Shown one piece after another: positions 36,195 through 41,079 of a stretch of DNA of 64,000 nt (its first letter is position 1; every line of letters starts with the position of its first letter). The position numbers and the translations under genes were made by a program. The notes under the pieces are model-generated. The model ran no database searches and was not told the DNA's origin. It saw only the letters and a list, made by a program, of their open reading frames with translations. The stretch is from Bacteroidales bacterium (GTDB lineage: Bacteria > Bacteroidota > Bacteroidia > Bacteroidales > UBA932): assembly GCA_017459075.1 (NCBI GenBank), contig JAFUDQ010000021.1, forward strand, positions 1 through 64,000, written 5' to 3'.

Positions 36195-36554
36195 TTGGGT
36201 GGAATTATTTTACTGGCAATAGTGTTTTTGCTGACACTGTTTGCGTGTCTTATATCGCTTATTGGAAAGCGAAAGACTCTCTGGTTCAGGCTGGAAAGGA
36301 CTGCTATTATAACACCGATATGTTCATCGGTTTTCTTTGCAAGCCTTTTAGAAGAGTCATACTTTGTAATAAATACAAAAACCGATGAAGTTTCTAAAAC
36401 AGCAGATAAGGTTTACGACATCGAACTTCTGAGTGCTTCAGATTTTTATTTCAAAAGGTACTGGCAGGTAAATGCACCCGGAATGATAATCCTCGTTATC
36501 CTTTGTGGCGGACTTTCCTTTTTCATTGCACGAAAGCTATTAAAGCGTCTTTAA
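36195..36554 (+). CDS. Small membrane protein, start uncertain
   Basis: About 119 residues with two clear membrane helices, one N-terminal (ILLAIVFLLTLFACLISLIG) and one C-terminal (MIILVILCGGLSFFIARKLL), and a polar middle that would face the periplasm. No family recognised. The start is a TTG; the frame stays open upstream through codons reading IELLFGLVL from 36171 but has no ATG, so either a non-AUG start is used or the 5' end was lost. It overlaps the convergent antiporter gene by 15 bp. Confidence 0.5.
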   Translation: MGGIILLAIVFLLTLFACLISLIGKRKTLWFRLERTAIITPICSSVFFASLLEESYFVINTKTDEVSKTADKVYDIELLSASDFYFKRYWQVNAPGMIILVILCGGLSFFIARKLLKRL

Positions 36555-38135
36555 AATGACAAGGATGTCTCCCTCATGGAGGATGGTGCCTCCGTGGGGG
36601 ATGATTTCTTTTTCACCGCGCTTGATAAGGAGGATAAGGCCGTCTGTGTTAAAGTCACTGATTTTGTGACCGTCAAAGCGGCTGCCATTCTTGATTCTCC
36701 TTTCTACCAGGAAGGTCTCTGTATCATCGAAGGCCTTTGTTACCAGAATCACTTTGTCACCGGCCTGCAAAAGGGTGTTTCCGCGGGCTGTAATGCGGTT
36801 GCCGTCGCGGATTACCAAGGCAATCAGCATGTTGCGAGGCAGACCCAGTTCCTTGACGTGCTTGCCGTCCCACTTGCTGCCAGGGGCAATGGCGATACTC
36901 CCGAACTGCATCTCCGTCCCTTCTGAATAATCGTTAAACGTACGCATAACGTTGGCATCGGCATCGGTCATATCAAGCCTGCGGGCCATCCAAGGGATGA
37001 GGGAACCTTGTAAAGAAATGGAAATAAGTACAATACAGAAGACAATGTTGAAAAGATCATTCTGGAAAAGCGTATCATTGCCGATAGCCATGATGGCGAA
37101 AACGATGGAAGCGGCGCCTCGCAGGCCGACAAATGAAATAAGTGTCTGCTGCTTGAAAGAGTATTTGCGAAAAGGCGTAAGAATGCTGCCAATTGTAAGC
37201 GGACGGGCCACAAGCAGCATGAAGCCAAAGACGGCCAGAGCTGGCAGGATTGCCTTGTGAAGCAGCGCAGGGCGGGCCAGGAGTCCCAGCAGGAAGAAGA
37301 TAAGAACCTGCATCAGACCGGTAATCCCGTCAAAGAAATTCACCAGGGTTTTCTTGCCAGGGAAATCTGTGTTACCCAACACGATACCCACAATGTAGGC
37401 GCTCAGGTAGCCGTTTCCACCGATTATGTCTGTAAGCGCATAAGACAGGATGGCCGTTGCAAGGATGAAAAGCGAATCGAAGCCGTCGCCCTTGATTCTG
37501 AAGCGCTCCAATATAAAAGAAGCCAGCTTTGCTATGCCTATGCCGCCCGCAAAACCAAAGGCAATCTGCGCAAACAGCATCCAGGCAATGTCTATCCCGG
37601 AAGCAGTGCCCGACGCAACACTGAGCATCAAGGCCGTAAGCATGTATGAGCAGGGGTCATTGCTCCCGCTTTCCATTTCCAAAAGCTGGGCCGTATTGTT
37701 TTTGAGGCCCAGTTTCTTGGAACGGAGAATTGAGAACACCGATGCAGCATCGGTAGAACTGACCATAGAGCCCAGCAGGAAGCTCTCTACAAGTCCCCAT
37801 TTAAGCACAAAGTGACAAAACAGACCCGTTAGTCCTGCAGTAAAGACAACGCCCAGGGAGGCAAGCAGGGTCGCCTCCCTGACGATGGGCTTGGCTGAAT
37901 CCCAGCGCGTTCCGAATCCGCCGTAGAACATAATAAAAATCAAGGCAACCGTACAAATCTCCTTGGCAAAGTCATAGTCCTGGAAATGAAGCGGAACAAG
38001 TCCGTTGTTTCCGAAGAAAATGCCCAGGACGATGAATGCGAGGAGGGTTGGTATACCGATACGCGAAGAGATATTGTTGAGCCAGATGCACAACATGATT
38101 ACAATCCCCACGAGGATAAGGAATAGCGTTGTCAT
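36540..38135 (-). CDS. K+/H+ antiporter of the NhaP2/CvrA type
   Basis: 531 residues. A CPA1 antiporter domain of about 12 helices (1-390; GSMVSSTDAASVFSILRSK and MESGSNDPCSYMLTALML carry the ion-binding region) is followed by two TrkA-C type domains (about 405-531, GSIAIAPGSKWDGKHVKEL and NGSRFDGHKISDFN). This layout is that of K+/H+ antiporter subunits such as NhaP2/CvrA, which export potassium in exchange for protons. It is preceded by a small membrane protein 9 bp upstream on the same strand. Confidence 0.92.
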   Translation of the reverse strand: MTTLFLILVGIVIMLCIWLNNISSRIGIPTLLAFIVLGIFFGNNGLVPLHFQDYDFAKEICTVALIFIMFYGGFGTRWDSAKPIVREATLLASLGVVFTAGLTGLFCHFVLKWGLVESFLLGSMVSSTDAASVFSILRSKKLGLKNNTAQLLEMESGSNDPCSYMLTALMLSVASGTASGIDIAWMLFAQIAFGFAGGIGIAKLASFILERFRIKGDGFDSLFILATAILSYALTDIIGGNGYLSAYIVGIVLGNTDFPGKKTLVNFFDGITGLMQVLIFFLLGLLARPALLHKAILPALAVFGFMLLVARPLTIGSILTPFRKYSFKQQTLISFVGLRGAASIVFAIMAIGNDTLFQNDLFNIVFCIVLISISLQGSLIPWMARRLDMTDADANVMRTFNDYSEGTEMQFGSIAIAPGSKWDGKHVKELGLPRNMLIALVIRDGNRITARGNTLLQAGDKVILVTKAFDDTETFLVERRIKNGSRFDGHKISDFNTDGLILLIKRGEKEIIPHGGTILHEGDILVILKTL

Positions 38136-38144
38136 AATAAGGCT

Positions 38145-38582
38145 TTAAAGCTTGTTAATAAGTTTTTCTGCCCGGGGAGAACGCAGCTCAACGATTTCCG
38201 TAGCCTTTTCATAAGTATAGCTGGAGAAATCAAAAAGCTGGGCGTATGCCACACCGGAGGTCCTGTTAAAATAAACCTCCAAGCGTACTATACCGCCGTT
38301 TTCCTGAGCCTTGATTTCAGGAGTGACATCCTTTCCGTCAAGGAAATCTTTAAGTGACTGACGGCAGGAATGGTCTACATCCATCGCCTTGTATTCAAGC
38401 AGAAGATCTTCACCTTCCCTCTTGTAGCCAGTCTTGAAGATTAGAAGTGAAATAATTCCGCAGGCAGCTACTATAATGCCCAGGCCTGCATTTACAAAAA
38501 ACAGTCCGGCTCCGGCAAGCACAATTGCTGCGGAGATTACAAGGTCCTTGACTGTGTGGACCTTTTTGAATTTAATTTCCAT
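38145..38582 (-). CDS. Conserved membrane protein upstream of antiporter
   Basis: 145 residues. Two N-terminal membrane helices (LVISAAIVLAGAGLFFVN, LGIIVAACGIISLLIFKTGY) and a cytoplasmic domain of about 90 residues (REGEDLLLEYKAMDVDHSC and YAQLFDFSSYTYEK). I know such proteins only as uncharacterised in Bacteroidales. The nine-base gap suggests coexpression with the K+/H+ antiporter. Confidence 0.75.
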   Translation of the reverse strand: MEIKFKKVHTVKDLVISAAIVLAGAGLFFVNAGLGIIVAACGIISLLIFKTGYKREGEDLLLEYKAMDVDHSCRQSLKDFLDGKDVTPEIKAQENGGIVRLEVYFNRTSGVAYAQLFDFSSYTYEKATEIVELRSPRAEKLINKL

Positions 38583-39060: not shown

Positions 39061-41010
39061 TTACTCGTAATAATACCCGTAGCCGGCTTTGGTGCGGATA
39101 TGGTCAGAAAGGTCACCGAGTTTGGCGCGAATGCGGCGGATGTTTACATCAACTACACGCTCCCCTACGACAACATCCTTGGGCCAGACAAGTTCCAGCA
39201 GTTCCTCGCGGGAGAAAATACGCCCGGGATTGGAAGACAGCAGGCTTAGCAGTTCAAACTCTGTCTTGGTCAGTTCAACGGACTCACCGTTGACAGATAC
39301 TTCCTTGGAAGCAACATTAATCCTCAGGGCTCCGGTTTCAGGTAAATTGTCCCGCTTACCCATCTTGGCTTCAACCACATTTATGATATAGTCCCCGCAC
39401 TTTTCGCACTCACGGACTATATCAATAAATATGGTTCCCGTATCAAAACTATATACTCCTTCGTCTACATCGTCGGTATTGCGGTTGCGTAAAACAGTCC
39501 TCAAAGAATCAATCCTGTTTTCAAGATCCAAGGAAACGGACTGGTCACCATCGCCCTTGAGAACAAGACACATATTGTCCATGGCCTGCTCTACAAGATC
39601 AAACATATCTGCAATGCCGTCTGCCATATCATCTGTAAATGCAGCCTTCTGCTTGAGTTTTCTCTCCATAGCGCGGGAAAGATTGAAGAGGCTGTCGCCG
39701 ATACTCTCAAGTTCACTGACTTCTCTTGTAAGGGAACGAACCTTGCGTTTGGTATCATCACTAAGATGGGCATTGCCGACCTGGGCCAGATATCCGCCGA
39801 TTTCGCTCTCCAAACGGTCGCTCATCTCCTCCATCTCCTTAATGCGGGCTGCCTTCTTTGCAAAGGCATCGGCATCGTTAATTCCATAAAGTTCACGCAC
39901 TTCCCCGAACATAAGCCTCATCCTGTCTGCAAAGAGCTGAGTCTCTTTCTGCGCCTGGAGCACAGAGATTTCCGGAGTCTTCATAATTCCGCTCTGGATA
40001 TACTGGAGCTTGAAGCCTTCCTCCCCTGCCTTTTGAGGGATGATTTTGCTTACAACCTTTTCCAACTGCGGAATAAACCAAATGAGTATCAATGTGTTAG
40101 TCACATTGAACATGGTGTGGAAGGTTGCCAGTACAAAGGACAGGCTGGCCGCATTCTGGGCCTCTGAATGAGGGTCGACACCAACCAGATTGCATGCTGT
40201 ATTCACAAACGGATAGAAAATCGCAAGCACCCACAGCACTCCGAACACGTTGAAAAGAAGATGCGCAAGCGCTGCCCTTCGGGCCTGAGTATTTGCCGAC
40301 AGGGCGGCGATATTCGCGGTAATCGTAGTGCCTATGTTCTCTCCCATCACAAGGGCGATTCCCTGGTAAATTGTAAGCACTCCGGTAGTACAAAGCACCA
40401 TCGTTATAGCCATAAGGGCTGCCGATGACTGGGCGATGCAGGTCAGAAGTCCGCCAATCAGTATGAACAGGATTATCGTCAGATAGCTGCCCGAATCGAA
40501 CGAAGCGAAGAAATTCACCACACTCTCATTGTGGGCAAGATCCATTTCCCTGCCGGTGGCGTTAAGGGTGCCAAGGGCGAAGAACATGAAGGAAAGGCCA
40601 AAAAGAAAATCGCCGAGATACCTGTGCTTTCGCATTTGAATCAGGATTACAGCGATTAGGAAAACCGGCCAAACCAGGTTTGTTATGTTGAAGGAGAAAC
40701 CGGCGGACATTATCCAAGCCGAAAGCGTTGTGCCGATGTTTGCTCCCATTATGACCGAAATTGCCTGTGACAACGTCAGCAAGGCTGCATTTACGAAAGA
40801 AACGGTCATTACCGTTGTTGCCGCTGAAGACTGGACCGCTACGCAGACAAGCATTCCGGTAAGAACTCCTGTAACGCGGTTAGTTGTCATTGCACCCAGA
40901 ATATGGCGCAGTCCGGGGCCTGCCATCTTCTGCAAGGCCTCACTCATCACCTTCATGCCGTACATCAGCAGGGCGATGCATCCAAGAAGTTTTAATATCG
41001 TCAAAATCAT
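39061..41010 (-). CDS. Na/Pi cotransporter-PhoU-winged helix fusion
   Basis: 649 residues in one uninterrupted frame. Residues 1-330: type II Na/Pi cotransporter with both QSS repeats (CVAVQSSAATTVMTV, CIAQSSAALMAIT) and paired GANIGTTLS/GENIGTTIT motifs. Residues about 345-550: PhoU-like helical domain. Residues 561-649 (39064-39330): an OmpR/PhoB-class winged helix, with ELTKTEFELLSLLSSNPGRI, recognition helix VVDVNIRRIRAKLG and wing IRTKAGYGYYY. The last domain normally belongs to response regulators. The predicted topology leaves it in the cytoplasm, where it could bind DNA. An 11-bp-period direct repeat lies upstream. The transporter is known to import phosphate; transcription control is inferred. 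Confidence 0.9.
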   Translation of the reverse strand: MILTILKLLGCIALLMYGMKVMSEALQKMAGPGLRHILGAMTTNRVTGVLTGMLVCVAVQSSAATTVMTVSFVNAALLTLSQAISVIMGANIGTTLSAWIMSAGFSFNITNLVWPVFLIAVILIQMRKHRYLGDFLFGLSFMFFALGTLNATGREMDLAHNESVVNFFASFDSGSYLTIILFILIGGLLTCIAQSSAALMAITMVLCTTGVLTIYQGIALVMGENIGTTITANIAALSANTQARRAALAHLLFNVFGVLWVLAIFYPFVNTACNLVGVDPHSEAQNAASLSFVLATFHTMFNVTNTLILIWFIPQLEKVVSKIIPQKAGEEGFKLQYIQSGIMKTPEISVLQAQKETQLFADRMRLMFGEVRELYGINDADAFAKKAARIKEMEEMSDRLESEIGGYLAQVGNAHLSDDTKRKVRSLTREVSELESIGDSLFNLSRAMERKLKQKAAFTDDMADGIADMFDLVEQAMDNMCLVLKGDGDQSVSLDLENRIDSLRTVLRNRNTDDVDEGVYSFDTGTIFIDIVRECEKCGDYIINVVEAKMGKRDNLPETGALRINVASKEVSVNGESVELTKTEFELLSLLSSNPGRIFSREELLELVWPKDVVVGERVVDVNIRRIRAKLGDLSDHIRTKAGYGYYYE

Positions 41011-41014
41011 ATTG

Positions 41015-41045
41015 CAAATTTACCTTATACCAACAGACTTGACAA
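41015..41045 (-). promoter_or_regulatory. Promoter of Na/Pi fusion gene
   Basis: Minus-strand TTG (41043-41045), a 20-bp spacer and TAAATTTG (41015-41022). Four bases separate the -7 box from the ATG, so the transcript should be leaderless or nearly so. Confidence 0.65.
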
Positions 41046-41060
41046 TAGAAAAAGTGAGAT

Positions 41061-41079
41061 TTAACATTTTCTTAACATT
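41061..41079. promoter_or_regulatory. Pho box-like direct repeat
   Basis: TTAACATT at 41061-41068 and again at 41072-41079, an exact 8-bp direct repeat with 11-bp period. OmpR/PhoB-family proteins bind such repeats; TTAACA is also the Bacillus PhoP half-site. It lies 16 bp upstream of the -33 box of the Na/Pi fusion gene. Confidence 0.6.

Follow-up and report, generated by a model that had tools for sequence, protein, structure and literature searches.

The Bacteroidales gene described here likely encodes a phosphate transporter that doubles as the transcription factor of its own gene: a membrane-bound protein, positively autoregulated through a tandem Pho box and independent of PhoR-PhoB. 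It lies on the minus strand of the window, i.e., the whole stretch of 64,000 nucleotides that was analysed. The evidence comprises the architecture of the protein and its conservation, the kinship of its winged helix with PhoB, 14 fusion genomes with no PhoB over the profile cut-off, a promoter repeat of fixed spacing, and an association between recognition helix and site, all of them read from sequence. The features were as follows.

39061–41010, minus strand: complete fusion gene for a type II Na/Pi cotransporter, a PhoU-like domain and a PhoB-class winged helix, 649 amino acids (open reading frame and profile matches)

40030–41010, minus strand: type II Na/Pi cotransporter, residues 1–327 (Pfam and NCBIfam profiles, alignment, hydropathy)

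39346–39978, minus strand: PhoU-like domain, residues 345–555 (Pfam PhoU, best stretch 364–446, and conserved columns)

39064–39333, minus strand: OmpR/PhoB-class winged helix, residues 560–649 (Trans_reg_C, the DNA-binding half of NF053854, and solved winged helices including 1gxp)

39118–39159, minus strand: recognition helix RVVDVNIRRIRAKL, residues 618–631 (alignment with E. coli PhoB)

41058–41077, minus strand: candidate operator (Pho box) TGTTAAGAAAATGTTAAATC, a direct repeat with an 11-bp period, 67 to 48 nt before the ATG (motif score and pattern)

41015–41022, minus strand: −7-type promoter box TAAATTTG, 35 bp past the operator (spacing common to related promoters)

The original prediction had placed a Na/Pi cotransporter, a PhoU-like domain and an OmpR/PhoB-class winged helix in a single uninterrupted frame, and this is confirmed: the frame at 39061–41010 (minus strand) runs from an ATG through 649 codons without interruption, and all three domains scored over their Pfam cut-offs. 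Na_Pi_cotrans (PF02690) matched residues 2–327 with 178.2 bits (cut-off 29.1), PhoU matched with 33.9 bits (cut-off 23.5) and Trans_reg_C (PF00486) matched residues 575–647 with 82.2 bits (cut-off 26.2). The protein also reached 217.8 bits on the NCBIfam profile NaPi_cotrn_rel (TIGR00704; cut-off 210.1). Two QSS motifs are the mark of the type II Na/Pi cotransporter family; those of the fusion (Q60 S61 S62 and Q194 S195 S196) were invariant across 38 aligned fusions and both aligned with SLC34 chains. The protein is presumably a sodium-dependent phosphate transporter. Conserved motifs of the PhoU-like domain were ELExxGD (residues 433–439) and ExEKxGD (534–540).

The best match of the winged helix was the DNA-binding half of the Bacteroides PhoB profile NF053854 (residues 554–649 on model positions 130–225, 109.7 bits). 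Against the whole-protein cut-off of 270 this score does not make the fusion a full PhoB response regulator, and among the Pfam profiles there was no Response_reg match, i.e., no receiver domain. By hydropathy, membrane segments reached residue 279 and none was found beyond residue 330, so that the PhoU-like domain and the winged helix should share one side of the membrane; going by general knowledge of PhoU, this would be the cytoplasmic side. Transmembrane segments and a DNA-binding domain are joined in one chain.

Full-length fusions without stops were found in at least 14 of 199 genomes of the gene's own family (its own genome included; 59–100% identity) and in at least two genomes, G000 and G580, of an order sample of 393 genomes, six of which belong to the family; G580 is from another family. 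The best 80 loci from a scan of named genomes comprised 69 fusion-type loci and 11 PhoB-type response regulators. Sixty-one of the 69 were full length, partly from the same genomes as the family's 14. The other eight were excluded because they lay at contig ends (L079, L106, L115, L134 and L137), held an undetermined residue (L092), had a start that escaped the search pattern (L124) or lacked the transporter (L130). These 61 loci and the window's own make up the set of 62 fusions used below. Many of the records stem from gut samples of deer, buffalo, goat, sheep, cattle, yak, horse or reindeer; others (RUG, UBA and SRR bins) give no host. The genome of the window is a draft of 53 contigs with 8.16% contamination, and the fusion tail of G587 is 93% identical to its own.

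Because full-length, stop-free copies occur in many genomes, an artefact, a frameshift or a pair of separate genes was rejected. The original prediction had looked to a break at about 39330, or to absence of the domain from all homologues, as the outcomes that would speak against it; what was found instead were the copies in the family, in G580 and at the 61 named-genome loci.

In one Prevotella MAG from reindeer (L130, 5845–6387), the transporter is gone and a 180-residue frame holds only the last part of PhoU plus the winged helix. Such a frame would suit a protein that is cleaved so that the released PhoU/winged-helix fragment serves as a soluble regulator, and the title of PMC11323476 names proteolysis of a membrane regulator, TcpP. 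Among 14 sequences no conserved Met was seen near residue 549 and the length of the joint was nearly constant, although neither observation bears directly on cleavage. We regard cleavage as very improbable and the intact, membrane-bound chain as the likely regulator.

PhoB over the NF053854 cut-off was present in 130 of the 199 family genomes, namely in none of the 14 with the fusion and in 130 of the 185 others (Fisher p = 1.4e-7, uncorrected for kinship); 55 of the 185 fusion-less genomes were without it as well. A second set of ten genomes (six further fusion genomes, one with the transporter-less form and three unfused relatives of G580), to which G587 belongs, likewise had no PhoB over the cut-off (0/10). 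The fusion genome G588 carries a PhoB-like regulator of 241.6 bits (cut-off 270). A putative sensor gene follows it and a PHO4 transporter is adjacent; regulator and sensor are probably a divergent PhoB-PhoR pair. PstB over the cut-off was found in 44 of the 199 family genomes, none of the 14 with the fusion against 44 of 185 others (p = 0.043, weak alone), and the 14 gave no PstB match at E ≤ 1e-90. Of 40 genomes tested, two had a stand-alone PhoU over its cut-off, and neither was among the 15 that carry the fusion. The genome of the window also holds a second, unfused Na/Pi-PhoU gene, 40% identical to the fusion.

The origin of the fusion was followed on two trees. On the winged-helix tree (69 sequences, few columns), all 40 fused sequences and seven PhoBs shared one node (97/89), and there the winged helix is akin to Bacteroidales PhoBs. 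Six of the seven were from Prevotellaceae or unplaced Bacteroidales and one (G171) from the gene's own genus; most PhoBs of the own family fell outside the node. The fusions were not one clade on this tree, which implied three changes. On the transporter tree (66 rows), a node supported at 91/93 contained 32 fused rows and five nested unfused rows, a topology that fits one gain and three losses of the fusion (four changes). The unfused Na/Pi-PhoU genes nested among the fusions (L016, L017, L018, L019 and L020) look as if they had lost the winged helix secondarily. Median pairwise dN/dS (up to 212 pairs, dS 0.15–1.2) was lowest in the transporter (0.058), followed by PhoU (0.113) and the winged helix (0.156). 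Single winged-helix pairs reached 1.04; this domain is mostly under purifying selection.

A TGTTAA repeat was first spotted by reading the upstream regions of the fusions, and a site score was then made by hand, with a threshold of 17 at first (window) and of 18 for the fusion, pst and phoB counts. Since the score was built after the fusion promoters had been viewed and the threshold was shifted from 17 to 18, the fusion sites were not counted blind. Retrieval of the pst loci came after the score had been built, and the test of the repeat period is independent of the motif. In 33 of the 62 fusions, the window's gene included, the upstream repeat read TGTTAMR-N4-TGTTAMA, with a period of 11 bp. 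This repeat, which the original prediction does not mention, is the strongest piece of evidence. Within the window, 41058–41077 was the sole site scoring at least 17 and the sole exact match to the pattern. Of 61 fusions, 32 had a site in the 200 bp before the gene; the remaining 645,334 bp of the same loci held four, and two of 40 unfused Na/Pi frames (those recognised in 45 loci) had one upstream. When direct repeats (overlapping 7-mers) were counted in 51 non-redundant fusion upstream regions, period 11 gave 60 against 15.3 ± 5.1 in shuffles. Periods 8–10 and 12–15 gave 6 to 32, the next highest being period 8 (32 against 13.4 ± 5.6); period 12 gave 8 against 13.2.

The site stands at a fixed distance from TAnnTTTG, which we take to be the Bacteroidales −7 box. 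Among the 33 site-bearing promoters, 21 of which are less than 85% alike, the gap from site to box was 35 bp in 27, 34 bp in three and 36 bp in one, and the box was not found in two (L101 and L104). The distance to the ATG, by contrast, varied from 66 to 85. Of the 21 non-redundant promoters, 17 had a −33-like TTG when the best 7-bp window was used (offset 11–17, picked post hoc) and 12 when the window set initially was used (offset 9–15). The fusion's own promoter carries, on this evidence, a candidate operator of its winged helix, and because a matching DNA site lies at its own gene the transporter probably controls its own production. In the window only 4 nt separate the −7-type box from the ATG, which may leave the transcript with almost no leader; the box of the sister group is further upstream.

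The same repeat was found at phosphate genes of relatives with PhoB. Fifteen pst loci (153,871 bp) held 12 sites. Eleven of these stood immediately in front of pst genes, spread over nine of the 15 loci; six loci had no site there at the threshold. For phoB, a site was present at most 250 bp upstream of eight of 20 genes, with three other sites in 77,225 bp, and 12 of the 20 had none at the threshold. The tandem repeat of 11-bp period is common to the fusion promoters, from which the score was derived, and to the pst and phoB promoters of relatives, and TGTTAMR-N4-TGTTAMA is, to judge from these positions, probably the Pho box of this bacterial group. The bare pattern is only weakly enriched in genomes with PhoB, as 14 of these had 15 exact sites against 10 in the control. 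Eight of the 15 lay at most 120 bp before phoB (2), PHO4 (1), Na/Pi (2), Porin_O_P (1) or DUF2490 (2), the two Na/Pi-associated sites preceding one and the same gene. The DUF2490 genes with an exact match upstream were in two PhoB genomes (L231 and L238), and DUF2490 may belong to the Pho regulon.

The 14 fusion genomes had 15 exact sites (three in the reversed-pattern control), four of them at fusion genes. None of the remaining 11 lay before a phosphate gene recognisable from its first residues, and three of these 11 are a single sequence that recurs within one gene in three sister genomes. The genome of the window had two exact sites, at the fusion and before a phage-integrase gene, and showed no general excess of sites with at most one mismatch (10 against 14 in the reversed-pattern control). 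The regulon of the fusion is apparently very small, judging by these counts. A conserved operon partner or fixed target operon was considered and rejected, since the ORFs around 13 fusion loci (read by eye, without a family search) differ. Downstream of the fusion, at 36540–38135, is a potassium/proton antiporter with TrkA_C domains, with an unassigned 145-residue ORF (38145–38582) between them; the neighbours at other fusion loci differ from this antiporter.

The sign of the regulation is not fixed by sequence, and the same protein and operator could form a homeostatic repressor that binds the promoter when phosphate is plentiful and shuts the gene down. The site, however, lies upstream of the −33-like TTG and 34–36 bp from the −7 box, a position suiting activation, and before pst the motif is assigned to PhoB, an activator of pst in B. 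fragilis (PMC3547664, accessible text). We think repression unlikely and proceed with positive autoregulation.

The DNA contacts were compared with those of E. coli PhoB as given in the accessible part of PMC3264566. R626 and R628 of the window's winged helix align with PhoB R201 and R203, and V622 and T640 with V197 and T217; T194 is replaced by V and R219 by A. The original prediction had named loss of DNA-contacting residues in relatives as evidence against it. Such loss was seen in part: the equivalent of R201, the base-reading arginine, is R in 46 of the 62 fusions and D or E in eight, whereas the equivalent of R203 is kept in all 62. At the position of R219, a minor-groove contact, there is no R in at least 60 of the 62 fusions, nor in at least 24 of 27 Bacteroidota PhoBs.

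A changed recognition helix was seen in 24 of the 62 fusions, and the site followed the helix: it was present in 33 of 38 fusions with a PhoB-like helix ([VI]DVNI) against none of the 24 without. On the tree, five independent pairs were available on supported branches, of which 3.2 on average agreed and none opposed; the kinship-corrected test was not significant (median p = 0.25). Seven of the eight D/E fusions form one clade (IRDIR, IKDIR or IREIR), and TTGATAA occurred in the promoter of six of these seven against none of the 55 other fusions. This is a hint of changed DNA specificity in that clade, and shared descent alone could explain the pattern.

The diverged helices without a site in these 24 fusions would also be expected if the winged helix no longer regulated genes and had become a cytoplasmic tail that controls the transporter, or a protein-protein contact, with the Pho box as a PhoB relic or the site of another regulator. 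In the PhoB genome G041 (contig C48, L232/L239), two exact matches precede an unfused Na/Pi-PhoU gene, so a Pho box can predate the fusion. G041 gave no PstB match at E ≤ 1e-90, and its Pho box is possibly the ancestral wiring. In the genome of the window, Trans_reg_C gave three matches: besides the fusion, it matched two response-regulator frames that could supply another regulator. These two, one of them without a receiver start, nevertheless reached just 164.8 and 135 bits on the PhoB model, below the cut-off of 270, and the second covers the model only from position 44. A relic would not readily account for the loss of the site in every changed-helix fusion, for its rarity before unfused Na/Pi frames or for the low median dN/dS of the winged helix. 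A non-regulatory winged helix is, in our estimate, quite unlikely, and the reading developed below is that of a DNA-binding, autoregulatory transporter.

The mechanism that we infer is as follows. The N-terminal part would import phosphate with sodium, and the PhoU-like domain, on the cytoplasmic side, would read the state of transport or of phosphate. The winged helix, derived from a PhoB response regulator and without its receiver, would bind the tandem Pho box upstream of the gene's own −33/−7 promoter. When phosphate is scarce, the PhoU-like domain would free two winged helices to pair on the repeat and bring in RNA polymerase, giving positive autoregulation rather than repression; at high phosphate it would restrain them. 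Receiver, kinase and phosphorelay would no longer be needed. Transcription and membrane insertion can be coupled, and the search for a promoter from the membrane would be less of a problem if the target is the protein's own gene. The DNA-binding domain of E. coli PhoB is active alone and activates a reporter, according to the accessible text of PMC3264566.

The proposal of a one-component membrane regulator that shortcuts PhoR-PhoB gains support from the conserved fusion, the PhoB-type winged helix, the lack of PhoB over cut-off and of PstB at E ≤ 1e-90 in all 14 fusion genomes, the lack of a stand-alone PhoU over cut-off in the 15 examined for it, and the promoter repeat; autoregulation and the apparently tiny regulon are additions to that proposal. 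It seems rather probable, moreover, that one polypeptide replaces PstSCAB-PhoU-PhoR-PhoB with a Pho regulon of about one gene, and that the site moved with the recognition helix in part of the clade. If so, the gene would be a minimal feedback loop in which a transporter reads its own promoter, an instance of a two-component system collapsing to a single protein, and a way to test if DNA can be acted on by a polytopic membrane protein. How transporter and PhoU report phosphate to the kinase is a long-standing question of the Pho system; with transporter, PhoU and output domain in one chain, and a candidate site for it, the step from transporter/PhoU to output is open to study without kinase and receiver. 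The repeat also supplies a candidate Pho box for Bacteroidales. Among the literature matches listed, from a search with subscription journals mostly outside it, no description of a Bacteroidales Pho box was found; B. fragilis PhoB binds the pstC promoter (PMC3547664), and the accessible text of that paper mentions "Pho box" once and "consensus" nowhere.

The original prediction knew of no described example, and the literature agrees as far as the same listed matches go: they contained no fusion of a transporter with a DNA-binding domain, nor any regulator whose membrane part is a solute transporter and whose own gene carries a candidate operator. The general kind is already known, as a count of transmembrane transcription regulators includes some with as many as 22 membrane regions (PMC10269533); in the accessible text of that source "transporter" appears once, in a reference title. 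ToxR, CadC and TcpP share with the fusion the plan of a one-component, membrane-bound DNA-binding protein (PMC10269533, accessible text). ToxR and CadC also share its OmpR-class winged helix. The fusion differs in having a solute transporter as its membrane part and its winged helix at the C-terminus. In ToxR and CadC the winged helix is N-terminal. CbrA, UhpC and BglF resemble the fusion in that a transporter-like protein gives the signal, but they act through kinases or other proteins, whereas the fusion has a DNA-binding domain of its own. NptA and other type II Na/Pi cotransporters (TIGR00704, relatives of SLC34) have in common with it the transporter family, the QSS motifs and the PhoU-like domain; S. 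aureus NptA has a C-terminal PhoU domain that modulates the PhoPR two-component system (PMC13170248, accessible text), and the fusion has the winged helix in addition. PhoB (NF053854, TIGR02154) shares the winged helix, the recognition helix and, apparently, the Pho box; the fusion differs from it in having no receiver domain and in being joined to a membrane protein.
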